This document shows, in pieces, positions 36,485-51,189 of a stretch of DNA of 64,000 nt (positions within the stretch are counted from its first letter, which is position 1; the number at the start of each line of letters is the position of its first letter). The position numbers and the translations under genes were made by a program. The stretch is from Tessaracoccus massiliensis (lineage in GTDB: Bacteria > Actinomycetota > Actinomycetes > Propionibacteriales > Propionibacteriaceae), in assembly GCF_000826065.2 (NCBI RefSeq), contig NZ_LN623543.1:846144-910143 (forward strand). Direction: 5' to 3'. The notes under the pieces were generated by a model. The model saw nothing but the letters and a program-made list of their open reading frames with translations, searched no databases and had not been told where the DNA came from.

Positions 36485-39509
<3,025 letters not shown>

Positions 39510-39524: not shown

Positions 39525-39645
39525 TCGGGTATTGTGGCATCCGCTCGGGTCCCCCGAGCCGGATGATGTGAGAGGAAGCCGGTGCGAATCCGGCGCTGTC
39601 CCGCAACCGTGAGGCCCCTGTGGCCAAGTCGGATACTCGCGAATC
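39525..39645 (+). ncRNA. Cobalamin riboswitch 1
   Basis: The B12-box region reads GAGGAAGCCGGTGCGAATCC then GGCGCTGTCCCGCAACCGTG at 39572-39611, the conserved core of cobalamin (AdoCbl-type) riboswitches, followed by the P6 side GGCCAAGTCGGATACTCGC to 39640. Downstream, 39683-39689 (GCCTCCC) is complementary to 39713-39719 (GGGAGGC), which contains the Shine-Dalgarno of the gene at 39725. Ligand binding should therefore shut off translation. It controls the surface-protein/ECF/MoxR operon. Confidence 0.93.
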
Positions 39646-39682
39646 TTCCGCAACACGAACACGTCGTGGATAGCGTTGATGT

Positions 39683-39719
39683 GCCTCCCCCGGTGCACCG
39701 TTGCGCCACGCAGGGAGGC
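39683..39719 (+). promoter_or_regulatory. Shine-Dalgarno sequestering helix of riboswitch 1
   Basis: GCCTCCC at 39683-39689 pairs with GGGAGGC at 39713-39719, hiding the ribosome-binding site six bases before the ATG at 39725. There is no T-run, so control should be at translation. Confidence 0.7.
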
Positions 39720-39724
39720 CCCGG

Positions 39725-40621
39725 ATGAGAGCCGCGCGGATCATTGCATGCGCCGCCTTGGCGTCCCTCCTGCCCTGCACCGCCCCGCTTCCCGCCCATG
39801 CCGAGTGGCGCGACGGCTTCTGCCGCCGGGGAGAGGGCCACACCGTGGTGGTCGATTGGAGCCTCCTTCCAGGTGCAGTAGGCGAGACGAGCCTGGTGCG
39901 CTGCATCCCCCTGGACGCAGACAACCCGAAGTTTCCAGAGTCTCCGGGCAACCCCCTGGCTGACCCGCTCGCGTCAGCAGGCATCTCTTGGTCTTCCCCA
40001 GGTGGTCTGATCACAATGATCAACGAGTTCGAAGCTGAGACAGGGTACTGGCACATCGCGGGGGGTGAAGTCACTGAAGCAGGGGGAAACTGGCTGGGAA
40101 TGGACGCCTATCTTCCCGTGGCGGAGATCGACAGTTTCAGTGGCTACACGCTCGCCCCTGAGTTCGGCAAACCGGTCCCAGTGCTCCCGCCGCAGTTCGC
40201 GCCGGACGAGCCAGGGGATTCGCCGTCCCCGGCCCCTGATCCCACTGACGGTCCAACCGGAGATCCCACGGGAGAACCGACCGGCGAGCCCACCGGAGAA
40301 CCCACAGGCGAACCGACCGGTGACCCAACCGGCGAGCCGAGCGGGGAGCCGACGGGCGTTCCCACCGTCTCCCCCACTGCAGACCCCACCGGCTCTCCGA
40401 GCGCCGCCCCTTCCGCTCAGCCAACGCCGAGCGCGAATCCGCAGCCGCCGCGATCCGGAGACGCCCTGGACGGCACCGCTCCCCTGGCCGCGCACCCGAC
40501 CGACACGGTGCGCGCCGTGTCCTACGGCATCGGCGGCGCGTCGGTGGTGTTCGTCGCCTGTGCCTCGGCCTGGGCCACCACTCGGCGGTCCCGTCACGAC
40601 AGGAGGCCCGCCGATGGTTGA
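39725..40621 (+). CDS. Membrane-anchored surface protein, first gene of B12-riboswitch operon
   Basis: A 298-residue protein. Signal peptide 1-26 (ending LPAHA), an extracellular domain 27-155, a Thr/Pro/Gly/Glu repeat linker 165-245 (PTGEPTGEP units), a transmembrane helix about 265-285 and a short Arg-rich tail, so it is anchored with the domain outside. The domain reads C33...HTVVVDWS...VRC60...PLASAGISW...INEFEAETGYWHIAGG, the same pattern of Cys and aromatic residues as in the proteins at 48436 and 51189. That resembles the DUF4430/transcobalamin beta-domain. ATG at 39725 follows GGGAGG. The next gene overlaps by eight bases. I infer a cobalamin-binding receptor; no homologue function is known to me. 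Confidence 0.75.
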   Translation: MRAARIIACAALASLLPCTAPLPAHAEWRDGFCRRGEGHTVVVDWSLLPGAVGETSLVRCIPLDADNPKFPESPGNPLADPLASAGISWSSPGGLITMINEFEAETGYWHIAGGEVTEAGGNWLGMDAYLPVAEIDSFSGYTLAPEFGKPVPVLPPQFAPDEPGDSPSPAPDPTDGPTGDPTGEPTGEPTGEPTGEPTGDPTGEPSGEPTGVPTVSPTADPTGSPSAAPSAQPTPSANPQPPRSGDALDGTAPLAAHPTDTVRAVSYGIGGASVVFVACASAWATTRRSRHDRRPADG

Positions 40622-41285
40622 GGGGCATCCCGTCGTGTGGTTGGGCATCGTGGGAGTGGTCACCGCCGTCGCGCTCGGCGTTCCAGACCCCCTGGCCAGC
40701 GCGGCGCTGACTGCGGCGCTGGCACTGAGCGGGCTGATCGCCCGAGGGCCGCGCGCTGCCAGCTTTGTGCTGGGCGCCGCTGCCGCGCTCGGCTGCGCGC
40801 TCGTGTGGCTCGGCTGGCTGTTCCTCGTCCCCACCGCCTCCGTCGCCACCTGGTTGACCGGCGCTCTGGCAGCGGCGAGCGTGTGCCTTGCGCTGGGTGT
40901 TGCCGGGCAGGCGGTTTGCGCACGCGAATGGCTGTCCCTGGCCACCCTCACCGGACCCTTCGCTCCCGCCCTGGGTTGGCTGTGCTGCGGCGGCGAGGCC
41001 GCGGCGGAACTGGCCGCACGCCGGCGGCAGGGCCGGCGGGCAGGGGGCCTCACCGGGTGGCTGACGACGACGCGGGATCTCGCCGAGGGGCTCCCCGGCG
41101 CCTCACCCGGGCGCCTGCTCGCGCTGCGCGGCCCCGATCTCGCGCAACTACTGGCGCTGGCGCTCCTCGCGGCTGCGGTGGTCCTGCGTCCGCAGTACGG
41201 GTCGCTGCCCCTCGTGGCGGCCGCGCTGACCCTGCCGCTCAGCCTCGCCGTCGCGATGCCGCGAAGGGAGGCGCGCAGTGCTTGA
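40614..41285 (+). CDS. ECF transporter T-component-like membrane protein
   Basis: A 223-residue membrane protein with four to six hydrophobic segments, starting MVEGHPVVWLGIVGVVTAVA. A polar helical loop (AAAELAARRRQGRRAGGLTG then WLTTTRDLAEGLPG) fits the cytoplasmic coupling helices of EcfT. Position beside an ABC-ATPase-like gene and an S-component-like gene supports a CbrT/EcfT role in cobalamin uptake. It overlaps both neighbours by eight bases and has AGGAGG before its ATG. Sequence alone is weakly conserved, so the assignment rests on context. Confidence 0.65.
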   Translation: MVEGHPVVWLGIVGVVTAVALGVPDPLASAALTAALALSGLIARGPRAASFVLGAAAALGCALVWLGWLFLVPTASVATWLTGALAAASVCLALGVAGQAVCAREWLSLATLTGPFAPALGWLCCGGEAAAELAARRRQGRRAGGLTGWLTTTRDLAEGLPGASPGRLLALRGPDLAQLLALALLAAAVVLRPQYGSLPLVAAALTLPLSLAVAMPRREARSA

Positions 41286-42591
41286 GTTCGCCTCGTTCAG
41301 CGCCTGGCTGCCTGGCGCCGGCGTCGTCCTCGACGACATCGAACTGAGCTGCCAACCCGGCGAGATCTGGGCCGTCGCCGGCCGCACCGGTGCGGGCGCG
41401 TCGATGCTCCTGCGCGCCGCTGCCGGCCAGCTCCCCCGCATCGCGCAGATCTCGGGGCGCAACCGGGCGACTCGCCGGGTACTGTTCCTCGGCCAGCTCC
41501 CTCCGATGAATGTGGCCGAGTACCTGCGCGGTTTCGTCGACGATGTGCGCGGCGCCGCCGACGACCTCGGGCTCACCTCCCACCTCCAGCACCGCATCGG
41601 CACCCTGCCGCCGGATCTGCGGGTCCCCCTCCATCTGGCCGCCCTCCGCCACGCCCCTGCTGCCGATCTGATCCTCCTCGACGCGCAGCTCACCGCGGCC
41701 ACGCCGCAGACCCGACGCGAGGTGGCGCTGGAAGCTCGCCGCCGGGCCGATGACGGCGCCGCGGTCCTCTGGGCCGACCATGACCTGGACACCTTGTGGG
41801 ATGCCGCCACGCACGTGGTGGAACTGGAGCGGGGCCGCGCGGTGCGCCGGGGGCCCGCCGACGAGTGGCAACCGCTCACGCTGCCACCACCCACGCCGCT
41901 GCTGCTCGAGCGTCTCCGCCCCCTCCCCACGGGGAACCGCGCCCGGCCCACTGCGGCACCGCCCGCCGCCACCAGCACGGTCATCGACCCCGCCGATGTG
42001 GGGCTGACCGGGCGTGGTCTCGAGGTGGGCGCGAACGAGTCGCTGGGGCTGCTCGACCTCTCCGGGCGGCCCGAGCCGCTCGCCCGGCGCATCACCGACC
42101 ATCTGGGCGGCGTGGTGCTGGGCTCACATCTGGCCCCGGAGGACACACCGCTCGCCGCCACCCGACGGTGGTGCCGCGAAGCGGGAGCGCCGCAGGGCGC
42201 CATCGACCTGACCGGGCTGCGGCCCCGTCGTCCCTTCGCCGAGCACAGCGACGGGGACGCGGCACGGCTCCGCGCCCGCCTGAGCGTGCCCGTCACCAGG
42301 CCGCTGTGGTACCCCCACCCCCAGGCCGGGCTCGACGCCCGTGACCGCCATGCCCTCGCCCACCAACTGGCCGGCGCCAACGCCGGGCCGCGGATCATCA
42401 CCACCCGCGACGTGGAGTTCCTCGTGCGGGCCTGCCGCCGCATCACCGTGGTCGACGACGGCCAGGTCATCGCCACCGGCTCGCCGCACGCCATCGCCCG
42501 CTATCTGCCCGAACTGCCGCTCGTGGCGCAGGCCACCGGTTCGAGCCGGTACCTGCGCCTCACGGACCTGCCGTTCGAGGAGGGCCCATGA
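41278..42591 (+). CDS. Degenerate tandem ABC-ATPase-like protein of ECF type
   Basis: A 437-residue protein with two ABC-like halves. In the first, Walker A at 35-42 reads GRTGAGAS: the lysine that binds ATP phosphate is Ala. Walker B at 130-136 reads DLILLDA, with Ala in place of the catalytic Glu, and the signature is LPPDL instead of LSGGQ. Q73 and the switch His H168 remain. The second half (240-437) has no Walker A lysine but keeps VRACRRITVVDDGQVIATGS, a typical ABC C-terminal strand. It overlaps the T gene by eight bases (GTG start) and the S gene by ATGA. It looks unable to hydrolyse ATP in the usual way and may be structural. Confidence 0.72.
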   Translation: MLEFASFSAWLPGAGVVLDDIELSCQPGEIWAVAGRTGAGASMLLRAAAGQLPRIAQISGRNRATRRVLFLGQLPPMNVAEYLRGFVDDVRGAADDLGLTSHLQHRIGTLPPDLRVPLHLAALRHAPAADLILLDAQLTAATPQTRREVALEARRRADDGAAVLWADHDLDTLWDAATHVVELERGRAVRRGPADEWQPLTLPPPTPLLLERLRPLPTGNRARPTAAPPAATSTVIDPADVGLTGRGLEVGANESLGLLDLSGRPEPLARRITDHLGGVVLGSHLAPEDTPLAATRRWCREAGAPQGAIDLTGLRPRRPFAEHSDGDAARLRARLSVPVTRPLWYPHPQAGLDARDRHALAHQLAGANAGPRIITTRDVEFLVRACRRITVVDDGQVIATGSPHAIARYLPELPLVAQATGSSRYLRLTDLPFEEGP

Positions 42592-43493
42592 AGATGAAGT
42601 GGCACCCCATGGCGCCGCTGAGCGGACCGGCCTCCCGCACCGTCCTCGGCCTGATCCTGATAGCGGGCTTCGGGTGGCTCACCTGGCCGATCTGGTCGTC
42701 GTTCACCGCGCCAGATCGCCAGAATCTCGCCGCGCTTCGTCCAGCACTCTTCAGCGCTCTGGCCGGCCTGGTCGTGCTGCTGGGCTGGGCCATCTGGCGG
42801 GATGCCGGGCACCAGATGCGCCAGTTGGCTACGATCGTCACGCTGGCGACGGTCGCGGCTGGGTTCCGGATGCTGGTGCAACCCGGCGCCTCGGGCATCG
42901 AGCCGGTGTTCGCCTTTCCGCTGCTGGCGGGCGTGGCGCTCGGCTCCCCGGCGGGCTTTCTCACCGGAGCGCTCGCCTGCCTCGGCTCGTCTGCGGCGAT
43001 GGGCCTGCTCGCCGACCCGCTCATCGGCCAATGCCTGGTCTGGGGTCTCTGGGGCGCCGCCGGCGGCCTGCTCCGCCCGCTGGGTGGAAGATCCGCCTGG
43101 GTGGGCGCGCTGGCAATGTCTCTGCCGCTCGGGGTCATCACGGGCCTGGCGCTGAACCTCATCGGCTGGAGCGGCGAGCGTACCGCTGAAGTGGGCGCCT
43201 TCCTGCCCGGCGTCGGCTGGTGGGAGGCCGCGCAGCGGCTGTGGGCCTACACGCGGGCCACCTCGATCACCTTCGACCTCGTCCGCACCGCTTCCACCGC
43301 CACCCTGATCGCTTTCATCGGGCTGCCCCTGATCCGGGCCCTGCGCACGGCAGTCGCTCCCGACATCCCAGCCCACCCCACCGAGGTGATCGCCCGCCCC
43401 CCGGAGATCACCCACGAATCCCTGCAGCGCCGCGAACGCAGCGCGCACCTGGCCACCTTGTGGCACCGTCCTGAAGGAGAATCCGATGCTTGA
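42588..43493 (+). CDS. ECF transporter S-component-like membrane protein
   Basis: A 301-residue protein starting MKMKWHPMAPLSGPASRTVL. About six to eight hydrophobic segments lie in 20-250; FRMLVQPGASGIEPVFAFPL and GSPAGFLTGALACLGSSAAM have the small-residue character of ECF S components. A cytoplasmic tail of about 50 residues follows. It is longer than a single S component (about 180-200), so a CbrV-like fused form is possible. Under the cobalamin riboswitch its substrate should be cobalamin or a precursor. It overlaps the ATPase-like gene (ATGA) and the MoxR gene by eight bases. Confidence 0.7.
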   Translation: MKMKWHPMAPLSGPASRTVLGLILIAGFGWLTWPIWSSFTAPDRQNLAALRPALFSALAGLVVLLGWAIWRDAGHQMRQLATIVTLATVAAGFRMLVQPGASGIEPVFAFPLLAGVALGSPAGFLTGALACLGSSAAMGLLADPLIGQCLVWGLWGAAGGLLRPLGGRSAWVGALAMSLPLGVITGLALNLIGWSGERTAEVGAFLPGVGWWEAAQRLWAYTRATSITFDLVRTASTATLIAFIGLPLIRALRTAVAPDIPAHPTEVIARPPEITHESLQRRERSAHLATLWHRPEGESDA

Positions 43494-44463
43494 CGCCACC
43501 GAACTCGAATGGGCCAGTGAGAAGCTCACGGCCATGAGCGACTACTTCGACGGCGTGGTCGTCGGGCAGGAGCGCCTGCGCCGCGCCCTCCTGGCGACTC
43601 TGCTGGGCAAAGGCCACATCCTCGTCGAATCCGTGCCGGGCCTGGCCAAGACGCTCGCCGCCGCCACCTTGGCACGTTCCGTCGACGCGAGCTTCGGCCG
43701 CGTGCAGTGCACCCCTGATCTCCTGCCCAGTGACATCGTCGGCACCGAGGTGTTCGACCCGGGATCGGCCACCTTCCACACCGAGCTCGGCCCTGTGCAC
43801 GCCAACTTCGTGCTGCTCGACGAGATCAACCGCTCCAGCGCCAAGACCCAGTCCGCCATGTTGGAGGCGATGCAGGAACGCCAGACCACCATCGGCGGTC
43901 AGAGCCACCCGCTGCCGGATCCCTTCGTGGTGATGGCCACCCAGAACCCCATCGAGGAGGAGGGCACCTACGTGCTGCCCCAGGCCCAGATGGACCGCTT
44001 CCTGCTCAAGGAGATCATCGACTACCCCTCCGCCGACGCCGAGTTCGAGGTGCTGGGCCGCATCGAGCGCGGCATCTTCGACCACCCCGCCCCCGCCGTC
44101 GCCACCGTTGACGACGTGGCGCGGCTGCGGCGCGCCACCGAGCAGGTCCACGTCGACGAATCGATCAAGCGCTACATCATCGAGCTGATCGGCGTCACCC
44201 GGCAACCAGCCGACTTCCTGGACAGCTCGCACGCCCGCTGGATCGAATACGGCGCCAGCCCTCGCGGCACCATTGCGTTTCTCCAGGTGGCCCGCGCCCA
44301 CGCGCTGCTGCAGGGGCGTGGACACGTGGTGCCAGACGACATCGTCACGATGCGCCACGCCATCTTGCGCCACCGGATCGTGTTGACCTTCGAGGCCCTC
44401 GCAGAGCAAATCCGCGTCGACGACCTGATCGACGCCGTCTTCGACGTGGTGCCGGTGCCCTGA
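43486..44463 (+). CDS. MoxR-family AAA+ ATPase
   Basis: A 325-residue MoxR ATPase. Walker A SVPGLAKT with K55 intact, Walker B FVLLDEINR (D112, E113), sensor 1 MATQNPIEEEGTYVLPQAQM, and the C-terminal lid. MoxR proteins form hexameric rings that work with VWA proteins to remodel targets. The ATG follows AAGGAG and lies inside the last codons of the S-component gene, so it is translated from the riboswitch-controlled operon. This is the only intact ATPase in the operon. Its relatives CobS and ChlI, with VWA partners, act in metal chelation. Confidence 0.92.
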   Translation: MLDATELEWASEKLTAMSDYFDGVVVGQERLRRALLATLLGKGHILVESVPGLAKTLAAATLARSVDASFGRVQCTPDLLPSDIVGTEVFDPGSATFHTELGPVHANFVLLDEINRSSAKTQSAMLEAMQERQTTIGGQSHPLPDPFVVMATQNPIEEEGTYVLPQAQMDRFLLKEIIDYPSADAEFEVLGRIERGIFDHPAPAVATVDDVARLRRATEQVHVDESIKRYIIELIGVTRQPADFLDSSHARWIEYGASPRGTIAFLQVARAHALLQGRGHVVPDDIVTMRHAILRHRIVLTFEALAEQIRVDDLIDAVFDVVPVP

Positions 44464-45335
44464 TGGCGCGCCTGCCCCGCATCCAGTCCCAGGTGGCCCT
44501 GGCGACCCGTTACCGGGTCTCCGGGTGGAGCGAGGGTGCCCACAGCTCCGTCCACGCGGGGCGGAGCCTGGAGTTCCACGACGTGCGTGAATACGTGCGC
44601 GGCGACGACGTGGCCGACATCGACTGGAAGGCCTCGGCCCGGCGCGGTTCGCTGCTCGTGAAGCGTCACGTCGCCGAGCGGCGCACCACGCTGCTCATCG
44701 CGGCAGCCACGGGCCGGTCAATGGCGGCGATGGCGTCGCCCACCGCTCGGAAATCTGACCTGCTGGTGGAGGCGGCAGCCACCCTCGCGGCACTGGCCTT
44801 GGGCCACGGCGACTACATCGGCACGCTGCACTGGAACGACGGGGCCACCGCCGGGGGGCGCCCGAGCACGCGGGCCGTTCAGGTGGAGCAGCTGCTCGCC
44901 GGGCTTGACGCCGCCTGCCGCCTGGATGCCGACGACGCCGATCTACCCAGGCTGTTGGACGCCACCGCCACAGCGCTTCGCCGGCGCAGCGTGGTGGCCG
45001 TCCTCTGCGGCGACGTGGAGATCGACGGCGAACTCGAGGCCCGCCTGCGCCGCCTCGTCGCCCAACACGAGGTGATGCTGGTGGCCGTGCCCGATCTGGA
45101 CCCCACCGCCGACGTGGGCACCGTGGTGGGGATCCACGACCGGCGCCGGCTGCCTCGCGAGCTGCTGCGGGACCGCCATCTCCGGGAGGCCTGGCGCGCC
45201 GACTGCGCCGAGCGCGCCGCGCGACGCAACGCGGCCCTTGCCCGGTTGTCGATCTCCAGCCTGCTGTTGAACCCTGAGCAGGACGTGGTGGGGCAGGTGC
45301 TCACGCTGGTGAGGGGGATGCGCCGTGCCGCTTGA
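44463..45335 (+). CDS. DUF58 domain protein
   Basis: A 290-residue soluble DUF58 protein. The signature GRSLEFHDVREYVRGDDVAD followed by IDWKASARRGSLLVKRHVAE is near residues 35-75; the rest is a degenerate VWA-like fold. DUF58 proteins are constant partners of MoxR. The start overlaps the MoxR stop (TGATG), and the stop overlaps the next gene by 11 bases. Confidence 0.9.
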   Translation: MARLPRIQSQVALATRYRVSGWSEGAHSSVHAGRSLEFHDVREYVRGDDVADIDWKASARRGSLLVKRHVAERRTTLLIAAATGRSMAAMASPTARKSDLLVEAAATLAALALGHGDYIGTLHWNDGATAGGRPSTRAVQVEQLLAGLDAACRLDADDADLPRLLDATATALRRRSVVAVLCGDVEIDGELEARLRRLVAQHEVMLVAVPDLDPTADVGTVVGIHDRRRLPRELLRDRHLREAWRADCAERAARRNAALARLSISSLLLNPEQDVVGQVLTLVRGMRRAA

Positions 45336-45780
45336 GTTGCTGTACCGGGAGGTCGACTACCCGGCCTGGTGGGCCTGGCTGGCCGCCGCACTCGCGGTGT
45401 GCGCTCTGGCGGTGCTCGCCGTCGGCATCTGGCGGTGGCGGGCGAGCCGCCCTGGCGAGGTGGCGCCTGATGATTCGCTCGAGCGCTGCCGCAGTGAGGC
45501 GCTCACCGGTATCGAGAAGGCCTCCGCCATGGCGGATCCGCGGCGGGCCTGCCAGGAGATCAGCCGGGTCACAAGGCGCTTCGTCGGGTTGGCCTCCGGC
45601 GGCGACGCCGACTACTCCTCCGCCGAGCAACTGCGGCGGGCAGCGCGGCTCGATCCGCGGTTGGCGGCGGTGGCCCGATTCGCCGGCGACACGCAGACGG
45701 CCTGCTTCGATCCTGCCTCCACCCCGGATGTGGACACCGTCGCGGCGCGGGCCAGGAGGGTGGTCGACACATGGCGCTGA
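45325..45780 (+). CDS. Small single-pass membrane protein of MoxR/VWA cluster (DUF4381-like)
   Basis: A 151-residue protein from a GTG, with LLYREVDYPAWWAWLAAALA leading into one transmembrane helix (about 14-37) and a cytoplasmic helical domain. Position between DUF58 and VWA genes and the aromatic PAWW before the helix fit DUF4381-type members of Bat/MoxR operons. It probably tethers the complex to the membrane. Confidence 0.65.
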   Translation: MPLELLYREVDYPAWWAWLAAALAVCALAVLAVGIWRWRASRPGEVAPDDSLERCRSEALTGIEKASAMADPRRACQEISRVTRRFVGLASGGDADYSSAEQLRRAARLDPRLAAVARFAGDTQTACFDPASTPDVDTVAARARRVVDTWR

Positions 45781-46733
45781 CCCATCCCCTCCTCGGCCTG
45801 GCCGCTCTCGCCGTGCTGGTGGTGGCCGCGGCGCTCGCGTGGCTCTGGCCCCGCCGGCCGGACCCGGTCACCGGAGCCCTGCCGTTCGCTGCCGCAGCGC
45901 GCCTGCGCGCCCTGCCCAGGTTCCAGGAGTTGGCCCGGCACCGGCGGCGCTGGCTCGTTACCGAGCTAGCCTGCCTCGCGGTGGCCGCCGTGGCCGTCTC
46001 CCTGCTGGTGGCGCGGCCGGTACTGCAGAACACCTCGCACGAGGAACGCGCCAACCGCGATGTGATGCTGTGCCTGGACGTGTCCGGCTCGATGCGCCCC
46101 GTCGTCCAGGGCGTGTTGGGCGCGTTCGAAGACCTCGCCCGCGAACTCGCGGGCGAGCGCATCGGCCTGGTGCTGTTCGACTCCGCCGCGGTCACCGTCT
46201 TCCCGCTGACCGACGACGCCGCCTACATCCGCGACGTACTGCAGGCCACCGCCGCCGAGCTGGAGGCACGCGACATTCCCGGCACCAGGCTGGGCGACGT
46301 GGGCAGCTCGCTCATCGGCGACGGCCTGGCCAGTTGCCTGCTGCGCTTCGATCGGGACGATCCGGCCCGGTCCCGCACCGTCGTCCTGGCCACGGACAAC
46401 CAGACCTCCGGCAAGTCCCTCTTCACCCTCGCGCAGGCGACCGACAAGGCGATCGCCGACGAGGTGCTCGTCTTCGGCATCGCGCCAGCCGACAACGCCC
46501 TGACCGCCACCGACGAGCTCTCTGCGCAGGCGCAGCGCACCGGCGGCCGGATCCTGCTGCTCGGCCCGCGCACGGATCTCGGCGCAGTCACGCAGGCGGT
46601 CGACGCGACCCAGCGCCGGGCGCTGGCGGGGCCGAGCCGCCCCGATGCCCGCGAACTCACCTGGCCGCCCGCCGCGCTCGCCGGGCTCGGTTTGGCGGGC
46701 GCCGCCTACGCCCGACGGAAGGGACGGTCATGA
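45771..46733 (+). CDS. VWA-domain membrane protein 1 (BatA-like)
   Basis: A 320-residue protein with two N-terminal transmembrane helices (about 8-26 and 62-82), a VWA domain (95-290) and a weak C-terminal helix. The metal-binding MIDAS motif DVSGSM (D103, S105, S107) is intact, with the later Asp in VLATDNQTSGK. It should bind a partner in a metal-dependent way under MoxR control. It overlaps the previous gene by ten bases and the next by ATGA. Confidence 0.87.
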   Translation: MALTHPLLGLAALAVLVVAAALAWLWPRRPDPVTGALPFAAAARLRALPRFQELARHRRRWLVTELACLAVAAVAVSLLVARPVLQNTSHEERANRDVMLCLDVSGSMRPVVQGVLGAFEDLARELAGERIGLVLFDSAAVTVFPLTDDAAYIRDVLQATAAELEARDIPGTRLGDVGSSLIGDGLASCLLRFDRDDPARSRTVVLATDNQTSGKSLFTLAQATDKAIADEVLVFGIAPADNALTATDELSAQAQRTGGRILLLGPRTDLGAVTQAVDATQRRALAGPSRPDARELTWPPAALAGLGLAGAAYARRKGRS

Positions 46734-47581
46734 TCTGGCTCAGACTCCTCACCGCTTTGCTGCTGGCCGCCTCCGTCGTCGCGCCGCGTCTGAGCGAACC
46801 GGACGCTCCGGCTCCGCCCACGGGGGCCGACGTACTGTTCCTCGTGGACCGCACCACCTCCATGGGCGCCCAGGACCACCAGGGCCAACGCCCCCGCATG
46901 GAGGGCGTGGCGGACGACATCGCGGCGATCGTCGAGGCGCTGCCCAACGCCCGCTACACCGTGGTGACAGCCGACAACGACGCCCGGATCGCCGCGCCGT
47001 GGACCACCGACACCACCGCCATCGTCACCCTGGGCCGCACGATGGGCTGGCGCGAAGAGGGCTTCGGCACCGGCTCCGACATCGCCGTCGGTGCCCCGCT
47101 CGCCGAAGAACTGCTGCGCGCCTCGGCCGCCGCCCGCCCGGACGTGACGCGGTACCTCTTCTACTTCGGCGACGGGGAACAGATCGCGCCCCACGAGCCG
47201 GCTTCCTTCGCCTCCCTAGTGGACGTCATCGACGGCGCCTGGGTACTCGGCTACGGCACGGCTGAGGGCGGGGTGATGGCGCTGCGCGTCGACTCCGACG
47301 AGCTGGTGACCCGCGACGGCACGGCGCAGTTGTCACGCCTCGACGAGGCGCGGCTGCAGACCATCGCCGAACAGCTCGGCGGCACCTACCTCCATCGCAC
47401 GGCGCCGGGCGGGCTCAGCCTGCCCACCACACCGCGGTCGACAGTGGGTGAGGCCTCCACCGAATCGTTGGGCCTCCCACTGGGCATGCTGCTGGCTGGC
47501 GCGGCAGCGCTGGCGCTCGCCATCGATGTGGTGCTGACCAGCCGTGCGGCCCGCCGGCTCCGGGCGGAGGTCTTGTCGTGA
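46730..47581 (+). CDS. VWA-domain membrane protein 2 (BatB-like)
   Basis: A 283-residue protein with an N-terminal hydrophobic helix (4-18), a VWA domain (32-240) and a C-terminal membrane helix (about 250-270). The MIDAS reads DRTTSM (D40, T42, S44), so Thr replaces the usual first Ser. FYFGDGEQI follows where the third MIDAS segment lies. It overlaps its neighbours by ATGA and GTGA, so the VWA proteins are made together. Confidence 0.82.
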   Translation: MIWLRLLTALLLAASVVAPRLSEPDAPAPPTGADVLFLVDRTTSMGAQDHQGQRPRMEGVADDIAAIVEALPNARYTVVTADNDARIAAPWTTDTTAIVTLGRTMGWREEGFGTGSDIAVGAPLAEELLRASAAARPDVTRYLFYFGDGEQIAPHEPASFASLVDVIDGAWVLGYGTAEGGVMALRVDSDELVTRDGTAQLSRLDEARLQTIAEQLGGTYLHRTAPGGLSLPTTPRSTVGEASTESLGLPLGMLLAGAAALALAIDVVLTSRAARRLRAEVLS

Positions 47582-48243
47582 CGCCGGGACGAGGACGATG
47601 GCTGGGCACCTCCGTGGCGGCGGCGCTCGTGTTGTTGCTCGCCGCCGCCGTGATGGCGGTCCCTCCGGCCTTCGTCGCCAGCGGCAACCGGGCGCTCCAG
47701 CACGGTGTGCCGCTGGCCGCCGAGGAACGCTACGACATCGCCTCGAACGTCCCCTCCGGCAGCGCCTGGATCCCCGTGTTCAACCGCGGAGTCGCCCGGT
47801 ACGACCAGGAGAAGTGGGACGCGGCAGCCGACGACTTCGAGGCCGCCATCGCGCAGACCCCCGTCGAGATGCACTGCCCCGTCTCCCTCAACTGGTCCGC
47901 GGCGTTGGAGGCCGGCGCCGACGCGCTTGCTGCCGAGGGTGATGAGAAGGGCGCCGCGCTGCGCTACCGGCAGGCCCTGAGCGTGCTGGGCTCCGCCGTC
48001 TGCCCGGAGGATCAACCGGGCGCGAACGGTTCGCAGGCCGACGACTGGAACGACGCACGGGAGCGCATCTCCGGCAAGGCGTCTGGCGGCACCCCTGACC
48101 AGGGGGATACCACCGAGGCACCCGAACCGCGAGCTGAGCAGGAGCTGGAGGAGCGTGCGGCCCAGGCGCAGCAGGAGCGCCAGAACGCCGAGCAGCAGCG
48201 CGATCCCCGGGAGGGCGGCGGCGACGGCACCCGCACGTGGTAG
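47578..48243 (+). CDS. TPR-like membrane protein (BatC-like), last gene of operon 1
   Basis: A 221-residue protein from a GTG. An N-terminal membrane helix (10-30) is followed by TPR-like repeats, for example FNRGVARYDQEKWDAAADDF and then ADALAAEGDEKGAALRYRQA. The C-terminus is a Glu/Gln-rich coiled stretch (about 180-215). In Bat operons such TPR proteins accompany VWA proteins. It is the tenth gene of the overlapping run and ends within the start of riboswitch 2. Confidence 0.75.
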   Translation: MTPGRGRWLGTSVAAALVLLLAAAVMAVPPAFVASGNRALQHGVPLAAEERYDIASNVPSGSAWIPVFNRGVARYDQEKWDAAADDFEAAIAQTPVEMHCPVSLNWSAALEAGADALAAEGDEKGAALRYRQALSVLGSAVCPEDQPGANGSQADDWNDARERISGKASGGTPDQGDTTEAPEPRAEQELEERAAQAQQERQNAEQQRDPREGGGDGTRTW

Positions 48244-48345
48244 GCTCCTGGCAGATTCGTCATCAGGGGAATGCGGTGCGAAACCGCAGCTGACCCGCAG
48301 CCGTGAGAGGCGCAGCCTCAAGCCGGAATGCCTGACCCGAATCGC
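48243..48345 (+). ncRNA. Cobalamin riboswitch 2
   Basis: CAGGGGAATGCGGTGCGAAA then CCGCAGCTGACCCGCAGCCG at 48265-48304 is the cobalamin riboswitch core, followed by AGCCGGAATGCCTGACCCG. It starts right at the stop of the previous gene, so it can act on read-through RNA or on its own promoter. Downstream, 48377-48386 can pair with 48427-48436 to hide the ribosome-binding site of the 917-residue protein. Confidence 0.92.
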
Positions 48346-48376: not shown

Positions 48377-48436
48377 CGCGACTCCCACGGGAGTCCTGCT
48401 TCTCCGACAGGACCCGTGTTGCGAAAGGGAGTCGCG
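48377..48436 (+). promoter_or_regulatory. Sequestor/anti-sequestor of riboswitch 2
   Basis: CGCGACTCCC (48377-48386) is a perfect 10-base complement of GGGAGTCGCG (48427-48436), which covers the Shine-Dalgarno and the first base of the GTG start. The same CTCC can instead pair with GGAG at 48390-48394, a mutually exclusive hairpin. This points to control of translation. Confidence 0.7.
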
Positions 48437-51189
48437 TGACTCTTAGACACAAAGTCCTAGCGGTGTTCACAGCCCTGTTGCTGGCTGTCCACACCCTCAC
48501 CCCACTCACCGCCAAGGCGGACTCGGCAAGTGAAAGCGTCGCCAGCGCGGCCGAGTGGATCGCCACCACCTGGGAGGAAAGCCCGGGTCAGTTCTTCGCC
48601 GCCGGCACCATCGCCGACGGCATCATCGCGCTCAGCGCCGCCGATTCGCATCCCGACACCGTCGAGAGCATGCTGTGGGCGCTTCACGAGGCCACGCCCG
48701 GCTACATCGGAACTCCCGATGACGGCGCCAATCCCGCCGGCCTGGCGAAGATCATCATGACGCTGGACATGGCCAACCAGAATCCGCGCACGTTCCTCGG
48801 GCCCGACCGGGATCTGGTCGAGGAGCTGAAGGGTTACGTCGCCGCCGACGGCGACAACATCAAGTCGTTCTGGGCGCCGTACCTGATCGCGATCGCGCTC
48901 GTGCGCGTCGGCGAGCCGGTGCCGGCCAACGTCATCGAGGCCATGACCGCCAACCAGCAAGGCGGTGCGTTCGGCTACTTCTCGAACGGCAAGTTCAATG
49001 CTGATCCTGATTACACCGCAGTGGGCATCTCCGCCATGTTGCTGGTCAGCACCAGCGAGCACGCCGACGCCACCACCCGCGAGGCGGCAACGGCCAGCAT
49101 TGCCGCTGCCGCCACCTGGGCGGCTGACCCCGCCAACCAGAAGACCGACGGGGACGGCAACTACTACTGGACCACCTACTCCCCCGCGAACTCCACCGGC
49201 ATGTTGGCCAGCGCGCTCGCTGAGGCCGGAGAGGACGTCAGTTCCCCCGTCGCCTTCCTCATCGATCAGCAGGACCTCACCGGCAACGGCGGTTGGGCCA
49301 GCTCCATCAACGGCACGTCCTCCAACGTGATGGCCACCACGCAGGCGATCATGGCGCCCGCCGGCAAGGGTTACGGCACCATCAAGAGCACCCAGCTCGC
49401 CCCCATCAACTTCGGTGGCGAGCCTGCCGGCATCGAGATCGAGCCCATCGAGAACGTGTCCATCGGCGCCGATCAGGAACTCACTCCCATCCAGGTCCGG
49501 GCGACCTCGGCGGTCACCATCGTCAGCTACTCCGCCGCCGGTCTACCTGACGGCGTAGCGATCGACAAGGCGACCGGCGTCATCTCCGGCAAGCCCACCA
49601 AGGCGGGCACGTTCGAGGTCACCGTCACCGTCACCAATGCCGACGACGTCACGGCCACTGTGACGTTCACCATCACCGTCGCGACGAACCGGGCCCCGGT
49701 CGTCAAGACGCCGCCAGACACCTGGGCCCCGGTCGGAGAACCGGTCTCCATCCAGGTGGAGGCCTCCGACCCTGAGAACACCACCCTCACCTACACCGCC
49801 ACCGGCCTGCCCACAGGCGTCACGATCGACGCAGCCAGCGGCCTCATCTCCGGTTCAAGCGACAAGGTTGCACGCGTCACCGTTCGCGTCACCGCCACCG
49901 ACGCCACCGGCAAGGCCACCAGCCGATCCTTCCTCCTGTCCGTGTGGGACAGCCACGCAGGCCCCTGCGAAGCCGACAGCGGCGTCACCGTGGTGATCGA
50001 CTACCAGAAGCTGGGTGGTGATCCCGAAGTCCGTTGCGCCCTCGGCGATCCGGTCAGCGGCGTCGACGCCGTGCGGAGTGCCGGCTTCACCCTGGAAGGG
50101 GTGCGCCAGTGGGGCGACGCCTTCGTCTGCCGCCTCAATGGCCGCCCCAGCGCAGACGAGACGATCCCTGTGGACGGCGATCCGGGATACCAGGAGTCCT
50201 GTGTGCGGACGCCTCCCGCCAAGGCCTACTGGTCCTACTGGCATTCTGACGACAGCGGCGCCTCCTGGGACTACTCGCAACTCGGTGCCGCCGGCTATGA
50301 CCCTGCCCCCGGCGAGTGGGAAGGCTGGTCGTTCTCGATGAACGCCACCGCCGACACCAACCCGACCCCGCGCACCGCACTGGCCCTGGCGCACGTGTCC
50401 GCGCCGAAGGTCGAACCGGTCGCAGATCTCACCGTCGACGAGGGTGACAGCGTCTCGGTCCAGGTCAAGGCCTCGGACCCGTGGGAAGACGACCTCACCT
50501 ACTCCGCAACGGGCCTGCCGGAGGGAGTCACGATCGACGAGAAGTCCGGGGTGATCTCCGGCAGCGTCGAGGAGGCGGGGAAACACGACGTCGTCGTGAC
50601 CGTGACGGACTCGGTGGGCAAGACCGCCACGGTGGAGTTCACCCTCACAGTCAGGGTTGAGGTGGTCACTCCGGAACCCTCGCCGGATCCGAAGCCCGAT
50701 CCCAAGCCGACACCTGATCCGAAGCCGACGCCTGACCCCAAGCCGGAGTTCACGCCCACCGCTCCGTACACGCTGCCGGGTCTGCACAAGAACCTCAACG
50801 GCCGCGACTGGCAGACCTCCTGCGAGCCGTACTCGCAGACGGAGCGCTGCCGCACCGAGATCTGGGCCACCGTCGTGGTGATGGAGAACGGGCAGTTCGC
50901 ACGGAAGAACGGATGGGCGTTCAACAACCTCACCTACTTGCCGCTGATGGAGCGCGCCGCATGGAAGGGCAACCCGATCGGCGACTACGGGGCCACCGCG
51001 CAGGGCCTGTTCACCTCCGCCGGCCGCCAGTGGCGCACCGAATGCGACACCGCCGCCACGGGCCGAGGCGCCTGCCGTTCGTACACCATGACGACGGTCT
51101 ATGCGGCCACCGCGAAGGCGGGGGGCGGCTACGCCTTCAGCCAGAGCAACCAGTGGGTGTTCAACAACATGGTGTTGTTCCCCAACTGA
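48436..51189 (+). CDS. Secreted transcobalamin-like protein: toroid, Ig-like and DUF4430-like domains
   Basis: A 917-residue exported protein from a GTG. Signal peptide 1-28. Residues 31-320 form an alpha/alpha toroid of the prenyltransferase/squalene-cyclase type (ADPDYTAVGISAMLLVS, FLIDQQDLTGNGGWASSING). Ig-like (He_PIG) domains lie at 335-416, 420-503 and 656-741. Residues 508-645 resemble DUF4430, with C511, C534, C565, C589 and YWSYWHSDDSGASWDYSQLG. A Pro/Lys/Asp linker (744-775) leads to a C-terminal domain (776-917) with four Cys and FNNLTYLP-type repeats, possibly wall-binding. Intrinsic factor and transcobalamin combine the same toroid and beta-domain to hold cobalamin. With the riboswitch upstream, extracellular cobalamin capture is a strong inference. 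Confidence 0.82.
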   Translation: MTLRHKVLAVFTALLLAVHTLTPLTAKADSASESVASAAEWIATTWEESPGQFFAAGTIADGIIALSAADSHPDTVESMLWALHEATPGYIGTPDDGANPAGLAKIIMTLDMANQNPRTFLGPDRDLVEELKGYVAADGDNIKSFWAPYLIAIALVRVGEPVPANVIEAMTANQQGGAFGYFSNGKFNADPDYTAVGISAMLLVSTSEHADATTREAATASIAAAATWAADPANQKTDGDGNYYWTTYSPANSTGMLASALAEAGEDVSSPVAFLIDQQDLTGNGGWASSINGTSSNVMATTQAIMAPAGKGYGTIKSTQLAPINFGGEPAGIEIEPIENVSIGADQELTPIQVRATSAVTIVSYSAAGLPDGVAIDKATGVISGKPTKAGTFEVTVTVTNADDVTATVTFTITVATNRAPVVKTPPDTWAPVGEPVSIQVEASDPENTTLTYTATGLPTGVTIDAASGLISGSSDKVARVTVRVTATDATGKATSRSFLLSVWDSHAGPCEADSGVTVVIDYQKLGGDPEVRCALGDPVSGVDAVRSAGFTLEGVRQWGDAFVCRLNGRPSADETIPVDGDPGYQESCVRTPPAKAYWSYWHSDDSGASWDYSQLGAAGYDPAPGEWEGWSFSMNATADTNPTPRTALALAHVSAPKVEPVADLTVDEGDSVSVQVKASDPWEDDLTYSATGLPEGVTIDEKSGVISGSVEEAGKHDVVVTVTDSVGKTATVEFTLTVRVEVVTPEPSPDPKPDPKPTPDPKPTPDPKPEFTPTAPYTLPGLHKNLNGRDWQTSCEPYSQTERCRTEIWATVVVMENGQFARKNGWAFNNLTYLPLMERAAWKGNPIGDYGATAQGLFTSAGRQWRTECDTAATGRGACRSYTMTTVYAATAKAGGGYAFSQSNQWVFNNMVLFPN

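Follow-up and report, generated by a model that had tools for sequence, protein, structure and literature searches.

The stretch of DNA considered here (the window, 64,000 nucleotides of contig NZ_LN623543.1 of Tessaracoccus massiliensis; contig C17 of the 3.2-Mb genome G000) carries an operon of ten genes, a to j, in which a surface protein and homologues of the T, A and S components of an energy-coupling factor (ECF) transporter are followed by a MoxR-Bat block, all behind a cobalamin riboswitch (Table 1). The ten genes, from 39725 to 48243, overlap at every junction by 1 to 11 bases, and a scan that does not cover all promoter types found no promoter-like site and no + strand terminator-like site inside a to j. 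A first-pass annotation, made without database searches, had described a cobalamin-riboswitch operon of T/A/S and MoxR/DUF58/VWA/TPR genes, overlapping without exception, and this description is borne out by the RF00174 match, the protein families and the profile comparisons. The pairing is kept in relatives and suggests that, in this membrane system, one motor may have taken the place of another.

Table 1. Positions of the riboswitches, genes and predicted hairpin in the window
Feature	Position	Strand	Support
Cobalamin riboswitch aptamer RF00174, operon leader	39529..39658	+	40.6 bits, E 8.2e-07, gathering 31.5
Predicted hairpin, GCCTCCC paired with the ribosome-binding-site-like GGGAGGC directly 5' of the gene a ATG	39683..39719	+	minimum free energy and centroid structures
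Gene a, secreted, transmembrane (TM)-anchored surface protein with proline/threonine (PT)-rich stalk; N-terminal domain akin to the SCO2322-like one of k	39725..40621	+	
Gene b, EcfT-derived membrane protein lacking the RGY motif of EcfT	40614..41285	+	hhalign
Gene c, double ATP-binding cassette (ABC) ATPase (A component), both catalytic sites lost, pseudo-ATPase	41278..42591	+	
Gene d, ECF S-component homologue with extra C-terminal tail	42588..43493	+	hhalign
Gene e, MoxR AAA+ ATPase with intact active-site motifs	43486..44463	+	AAA_3/MoxR E 2.2e-58, 196.2 bits
Gene f, DUF58 protein	44463..45335	+	E 9e-25
Gene g, DUF4381 protein with a single N-terminal TM helix	45325..45780	+	E 3.7e-06, 27.7 bits, cut-off 27.2
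Gene h, BatA-type von Willebrand factor A (VWA) membrane protein, DxSxS	45771..46733	+	VWA E 7.6e-11, weak BatA N-terminus
Gene i, BatB-type VWA membrane protein	46730..47581	+	VWA E 5.9e-10
Gene j, tetratricopeptide repeat (TPR) protein, BatC-like	47578..48243	+	weak match
Second cobalamin riboswitch (core match), gene k leader	48267..48332	+	38.8 bits, E 2.6e-06
Gene k, secreted protein	48436..51189	+	

Expression behind cobalamin riboswitches is lowered when cobalamin is present. Both leaders in the window pass the RF00174 gathering score, and the second riboswitch and gene k, which the first-pass annotation of the operon did not include, belong to the same arrangement. The hairpin ahead of gene a may possibly be the expression platform of the operon riboswitch; this reading is weak, as the operon leader as a whole folds no better than its shuffles (z -0.54). 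Directly upstream of the operon riboswitch lies a divergent gene for a beta-galactosidase-type glycoside hydrolase of family 2 (36519-39506, - strand).

Motifs and domains of the encoded proteins

Gene c scores just below the cut-off of the ABC_tran family (24.4 bits against 25), and the profile of its relatives matches the ABC domains of solved structures. The A proteins of 24 coupled loci, in which S stands beside MoxR (the window and 23 others; of the 25 such loci, L048 has no A frame on its contig), were aligned with 38 of 39 stand-alone A proteins (L026 has no ABC frame). The Walker A lysine of the first nucleotide-binding domain (NBD1) is present in 0/24 coupled proteins (0/23 readable) versus 11/38 stand-alone ones, the other 27 rows being cut off, gapped or broken up there, and the NBD1 signature (0/24 versus 36/38) and catalytic glutamate (0/24 versus 37/38) divide likewise. 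The same is seen in NBD2 for the Walker A lysine (0/24 versus 37/38), the catalytic glutamate (2/24 versus 38/38) and the H-loop histidine (2/24 versus 38/38); the coupled L053 is gapped throughout NBD1 and the coupled L221 in the NBD2 motifs shown. Two working ABC sites, each with Walker A, signature and Walker B glutamate, are thus not found in the coupled A proteins. By its motifs, c appears to be a dead ABC ATPase that could not serve as a motor. The first-pass annotation had taken T, A and S for a probable cobalamin ECF transporter; the homology of the three components stands, but the reading as an ordinary transporter is left unsupported, because its A component cannot, by these motifs, be a working ABC ATPase. 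A decaying pseudogene was also considered for c and ruled out: the ratio of nonsynonymous to synonymous substitution (dN/dS) is 0.19-0.28 in all eight relative pairs, hand-chosen as close pairs, which points to purifying selection, and the frames are long and open in the relatives (the c frame of L053 is short).

Neither b nor d, taken singly, has a Pfam match better than chance, and their kinship was seen in comparisons of family profiles. The d family matches the stand-alone S components over 247 columns (hhalign probability 99.6, E 8.1e-25), which makes it an S homologue; one stand-alone S protein of this comparison is PF12822 at 45.7 bits, and single d members match PF12822 and PF07155 weakly in 3 and 5 of 18 cases (best E 0.0016). 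The b family matches the stand-alone T proteins in its N-terminal 139 columns only (probability 97.9, E 4.7e-13). The RGY/F motif of EcfT is found in 7/7 stand-alone T proteins and has no counterpart in 13 coupled ones, in which a wider RGY pattern gives four matches, three of them in a segment closer to the N-terminus and the fourth with different sequence around it. Coupled S proteins also carry a C-terminal tail with the pattern RR..S..L..W (18/23 versus 0/41 stand-alone); this pattern and that of the T motif were written after the sequences had been viewed.

A natural control within the window genome is a stand-alone ECF operon on contig C13 (L035, C13:165500-183500). It has a CbiQ match of 44.4 bits, an S component matching PF12822 at 45.7 bits, a double ABC protein whose motifs are intact, and surface proteins that resemble SCO2321 and SCO2322 at scores under the curated cut-offs. 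Its upstream cobalamin riboswitch match, at 26 bits, lies under the 31.5 cut-off. Among seven stand-alone ECF loci scanned, one only (L163) has a cobalamin riboswitch at gathering, so that stand-alone ECF loci are only weakly tied to cobalamin.

The families of e to j, assigned with Pfam and NCBIfam, give the order of a Bat operon (MoxR, DUF58, two VWA membrane proteins, TPR), the TPR match being weak. MoxR has an intact Walker A, Walker B, sensor 1 and arginine finger in 19/19 rows and an intact sensor 2 region in 18, one row being cut there, and its dN/dS is 0.06-0.15. The first motif of the VWA metal site reads D-x-S-x-S in 18/18 BatA and D-x-T-x-S in 18/18 BatB proteins. Gene h is the sole BatA match in the window genome; three further MoxR genes lie at C16:220666, C17:740598 and C17:511876. 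The likeness of MoxR and VWA proteins to the pairs CobS/CobT and ChlI/ChlD, to which the first-pass annotation had pointed, would suggest a cobaltochelatase-like role in metal insertion, and MoxR does match BchD-ChlD (31.6 bits) and Cob-chelat-sub (27.9 bits). These scores are far under the cut-offs of 499.55 and 779.45, AAA_3 fits far better, and no large chelatase subunit was recognised in the operon by Pfam or NCBIfam. The first of these scores does not place MoxR among the chelatases, the suggested link is weak, and a metal-insertion role seems extremely unlikely.

Gene k begins with a domain (residues ~40-321) common to k-type proteins of relatives, followed by He_PIG Ig domains, an SCO2322-like domain (~500-670) and a C-terminal domain (776-915) common to other surface proteins of the genome. 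Its SCO2322-like domain scores 32.9 bits against the NCBIfam SCO2322 model, below the curated cut-off of 85, and is 43% identical to its counterpart in the C13 ECF operon. In the relatives read, two genes, a1 (SCO2322-like domain, stalk, TM helix) and a2, stand where the window has only a; the a1 domain is related to that of k (probability 96.9). Because the start of the window's a resembles a1 and its C-terminus resembles a2 (25/42 identical), a is probably an a1/a2 fusion that arose by deletion. The first-pass annotation had named a DUF4430 surface protein. DUF4430 is absent from the Pfam scans of a (E up to 1), k (E up to 0.01) and their domains, and the DUF4430/transcobalamin reading of a and k is unsupported, as no such Pfam or PDB match was obtained. 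A riboswitch and a k-type gene lie downstream of the operon in several relatives too. Elsewhere in the window genome (L036, C3:112000-124000), a sub-threshold cobalamin riboswitch match of 30 bits lies near surface proteins with k domains.

Distribution and descent of the coupling

The window S was searched in 197 genomes of its family, Propionibacteriaceae, of which 101 match at E 1e-3 and 19, including the window, match strongly, in three genera. In each of the 18 other strong S loci, all of which were fetched, MoxR adjoins S. Genes c-d-e-f-h-i are collinear on a single strand in 16 of these 18 relatives, from three genera, the two exceptions (G180 and G194) being loci cut by contig ends; this order is also found in Nocardioides. 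The frames of d and e overlap in 16/18 relatives. BatA occurs in 25/197 family genomes, 20 of them coupled, and all 19 genomes with a strong coupled S have it (in G180 on a different contig from S) versus 6 of the 178 others (Fisher p 1.3e-21, with kinship ignored). The coupling is therefore conserved and not an accident of the window genome. Among the 82 weaker family S matches, the inspected loci (L024-L034) look stand-alone.

Seen from the Bat side of the family, c and d are found next to MoxR or upstream of it in 21 inspected BatA loci (20 genomes, one with two copies); the second coupled copy of G035 is L157. Of the six BatA genomes without a strong coupled S, G053 has a coupled locus whose S is divergent and whose A protein is dead (GVSGSGAT). 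G182 and G056 have stand-alone Bat blocks with more than 6 kb seen upstream, G136 has no S in the ~470 bases upstream of its Bat block, and the contig of G001 ends ~110 bases before MoxR. In G067 (L223) the MoxR gene of the Bat block is cut short beside a transposase-like frame.

Beyond the family, the search of the order gave S matches at 1e-15 in 27/245 genomes, three genomes outside the family being coupled and of Nocardioides type (G317, G328 and G329; the G328 sequence is the same as Nocardioides sp. zg-DK7169), and N. alcanivorans (L085) is a fourth; the inspection of the eight weaker order-level matches covered six, all but G212 and G229. A search of the class with the coupled S matched 60/345 genomes at 1e-10, the two strongest being known coupled genomes of the window's family, and 23 inspected loci among the weaker matches (L164-L186) gave no MoxR profile match. 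Likewise, 5/346 genomes matched in the phylum at 1e-15, the window included, and three of the four others, inspected as L227-L229, gave no MoxR profile match. The ABC frames of the inspected class and phylum loci have a KS Walker A wherever one is shown. A wider origin of the coupling was considered and set aside, with no further coupled case among the class and phylum matches inspected.

A pattern scan for BatA in named genomes gave, among the 80 loci listed, 12 with S beside MoxR and 67 without; one locus (L057) is cut inside MoxR. Among the 67, at least 1.5 kb upstream of MoxR is available in 57 and less in 8, and 2 have no MoxR frame. The Bat block stands alone in most of the other Actinomycetota loci inspected among these matches. 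The first-pass annotation had held that its proposal would be refuted if related genomes had the MoxR/VWA block apart from the transporter, and the outcome is divided: 57 of the 67 loci could be judged and show no S match, and the block also stands alone in at least two Propionibacteriaceae genomes (G182 and G056), but the coupling holds in 20/25 Propionibacteriaceae genomes with BatA. The independence of the block in the judged loci is what would be expected if two unrelated units, with no joint function, had come to lie end to end by chance. The conserved order and overlaps, the single clade of coupled S proteins and the strong co-occurrence speak against this, and we consider it very improbable.

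In the S tree, the 24 coupled rows form one side of a single branch against 41 stand-alone rows (two of which are repeats of one place, and three of which have <600 bases after S), with support of 100/100 and one change. The coupled clade contains Tessaracoccus, Cutibacterium, Acidipropionibacterium and Nocardioides, and the ECF side looks as if it had one origin.

The head of the locus is visible in 24 of the 25 coupled loci, and in 19 of the 24 a match to the cobalamin riboswitch clan lies ahead of the operon or its surface-gene run on the same strand. Eleven of these leaders are at or over gathering (the window, L038, L039, L040, L041, L044, L046, L047, L054, L156 and L221) and eight are below it (L037, to RF01482, and L042, L045, L050, L052, L053, L064 and L085). 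In L155 and L156 an a1-like gene is divergent, with its own riboswitch, and the stand-alone Bat loci L219 and L222 have no cobalamin riboswitch at gathering. Cobalamin riboswitch matches number 12 to 19 per genome at E 0.01 in the Cutibacterium genomes G035, G069, G094, G104, G111 and G118; there are 9 in G013, also Cutibacterium, and 4 in the window genome. These leaders bear on the possibility that the ligand is another one (e.g., cobalt, a cobalamin precursor or a lipid) and that the system merely sits within the cobalamin regulon. Such a reading would agree with a d substrate that is unreadable from sequence, with d and b profiles for which no PDB relative was found, and with open-licence literature in which no paper on the SCO2321-SCO2324 substrate was found. 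The leaders at most of the visible heads, together with the surface domain common to the C13 ECF operon and to k, which has its own cobalamin riboswitch, count against another ligand, and we regard it as improbable.

Possible functions of the system

The reading that we favor, and hold tentatively at less than even chances, is that the operon encodes a membrane system for cobalamin shortage in which the MoxR-Bat block does ATP-driven work for an ECF-derived corrinoid receptor. It starts from the observed anatomy of the locus, its conservation, the loss of the ABC catalytic motifs and the intact motifs of MoxR; we infer the physical contact, the direction of the work and corrinoid as the ligand. 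Under this reading, the riboswitch would turn the operon on when cobalamin is scarce, as is established for RF00174, and the surface proteins a and k would capture a corrinoid or a corrinoid carrier. The b-c-d trio would survive as a receptor or channel in the membrane, c serving as a scaffold, and would hold or pass the ligand without using ATP. MoxR, together with membrane-associated DUF58 and DUF4381 and with the VWA domains of BatA and BatB probably outside, would provide ATP-driven remodelling that resets the S protein or opens a surface receptor, so that the ligand is passed inward. The ABC motor would thus be replaced by, or subordinate to, a MoxR/VWA motor. The stricter form of this idea, a motor swap in which an ECF vitamin transporter with a dead ABC ATPase has its uptake or receptor opening energised across the membrane by MoxR AAA+ and VWA proteins, is possible but doubtful.

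Several observations weigh against the favored reading. Five of the 24 heads (L043, L049, L051, L155 and L157) have no convincing cobalamin leader on the operon strand, and in the Cutibacterium loci L050, L052, L053 and L054 the leader lies ~1.1 kb ahead of the first a-type frame, a gap that makes a common transcript uncertain in these four. The coupled A proteins keep the H-loop and the Walker B aspartate of NBD1 (23/24 each) and the S..G signature pattern of NBD2 (17/24), so that c may retain residual nucleotide binding. The topology, with the VWA domains probably outside and MoxR, DUF58 and most of DUF4381 probably inside, comes from a crude hydropathy and charge count. In the MoxR tree (37/65 stand-alone rows kept; several long branches), the coupled label needs two changes, one-change trees occur in 0/200 bootstrap replicates, and stand-alone rows of Enemella and three of Nocardioides nest among the coupled rows; the Bat block may have joined on more than one occasion, or some loci may have lost the trio afterwards. 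The window's own copy may work less well, given that a is a shortened fusion and b is ~110 residues shorter than in many relatives. Finally, a second locus in G069 (L225, on its contig C15) has a riboswitch, a1-like and a2-like genes and a MoxR-Bat block with no b, c or d. Its composition means that the Bat block can accompany surface proteins without the trio, and it speaks for a direct tie between surface proteins and Bat, with no strict need for the trio.

This second locus is also what could be expected if the MoxR-Bat block were a machine for maturing or displaying a1, a2 and k, with the trio as a mere platform or anchor, and the cobalamin-repressed products were surface structures (adhesins or corrinoid catchers) and not a transporter. 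VWA domains that probably face outside would fit, as would the cobalamin riboswitches of C. acnes, which, in the excerpts of PMC9600381, sometimes precede adhesin fragments and thrombospondin-type-3 repeat proteins. A display machine would sit less easily with the 21 family BatA loci in which c and d have stayed next to or upstream of MoxR, with the purifying selection on c and d, and with the flanks of the other-family stand-alone Bat loci, which held no a- or k-type match among the matches listed. We judge it rather unlikely.

The trio might instead be a sensor, with ligand binding by S signalled to MoxR/DUF58 through the dead ABC protein. A dead ATPase that is nevertheless conserved would make sense as a signalling scaffold, the tail of S is conserved as well, and the S-component fold has been linked to receptors as well as transporters (PMC11109136, in excerpt). 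Since the riboswitch already provides regulation, and Pfam and NCBIfam recognised no output domain or regulator gene in the operon, a sensor appears quite improbable.

Comparison with known systems

Bat/MoxR operons are widespread and, to our knowledge, have no agreed function. The operon described here ties one of them, through both operon membership and descent, to a named client (the ECF-derived trio and the surface proteins) and a named signal (cobalamin), and this makes Bat function testable. The first-pass annotation knew of no described system with this composition; consistent with this, no description of a cobalamin riboswitch or ECF genes combined with MoxR was found in the titles and abstracts of the open-licence literature. 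Cobalamin riboswitches of C. acnes have been mapped near 'ABC transport' and adhesin-like genes (PMC9600381), and the main text of that paper contains no mention of MoxR, von Willebrand, ECF or 'ABC transporter'. If MoxR does drive an ECF-derived module, it would be an energy route for membrane transport undescribed in the open-licence literature searched.

Among the closest known systems are ECF vitamin transporters such as ECF-CbrT for B12, with which the locus shares T/A/S homologues in one operon and a cobalamin link (PMC5997447, in excerpt). It differs from ECF-CbrT, for which that source gives ATP-dependent uptake, in an A protein without catalytic residues, a T protein without RGY, an extra tail on S and the MoxR-Bat block that follows. 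The stand-alone C13 operon of the same genome is alike in its homologous S protein, the N-terminal half of its T protein, its SCO2322-like surface domain and a nearby sub-threshold riboswitch, but has intact ABC motifs and no MoxR-Bat block. Annotation by neighborhood would call the window operon a cobalamin ECF transporter despite an ATPase that is dead by sequence.

Genes e to j resemble the Bat/MoxR-DUF58-VWA-TPR operons in content and order (PMC3557215, in excerpt). Those inspected in other families are stand-alone, whereas that of the window stands behind T/A/S genes under a cobalamin riboswitch. According to the same excerpts, an L. biflexa mutant that lacks its bat genes showed neither a growth nor an oxidative-stress phenotype, which gives no support to a role of Bat in oxygen tolerance in that species.

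The model of a MoxR motor is borrowed from NorQ/NorD and from the ATP-driven release of S in ECF transporters, in which the presence of ATP in the motor abolishes the site where the S-component docks and lets it be expelled (PMC10368641, in excerpt). In the excerpts of PMC9976466, NorQ/NorD is a MoxR/VWA pair in which ATP hydrolysis by MoxR and the metal-ion-dependent adhesion site (MIDAS) of the VWA protein are needed to activate a membrane protein. The operon is alike in pairing a MoxR AAA+ protein with VWA partners, and NorQD likewise has a membrane protein as its client. The two differ in that the NorD VWA domain is believed to contact NorB through residues on its cytoplasmic face (PMC9976466), whereas those of the window are probably outside, and in that the client is NorB in the one and, as we propose, the ECF-derived trio or the surface proteins in the other. 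As judged from its sequence, the operon fails as a working ECF transporter and would be placed among the MoxR/VWA systems, as one with an unusual client.

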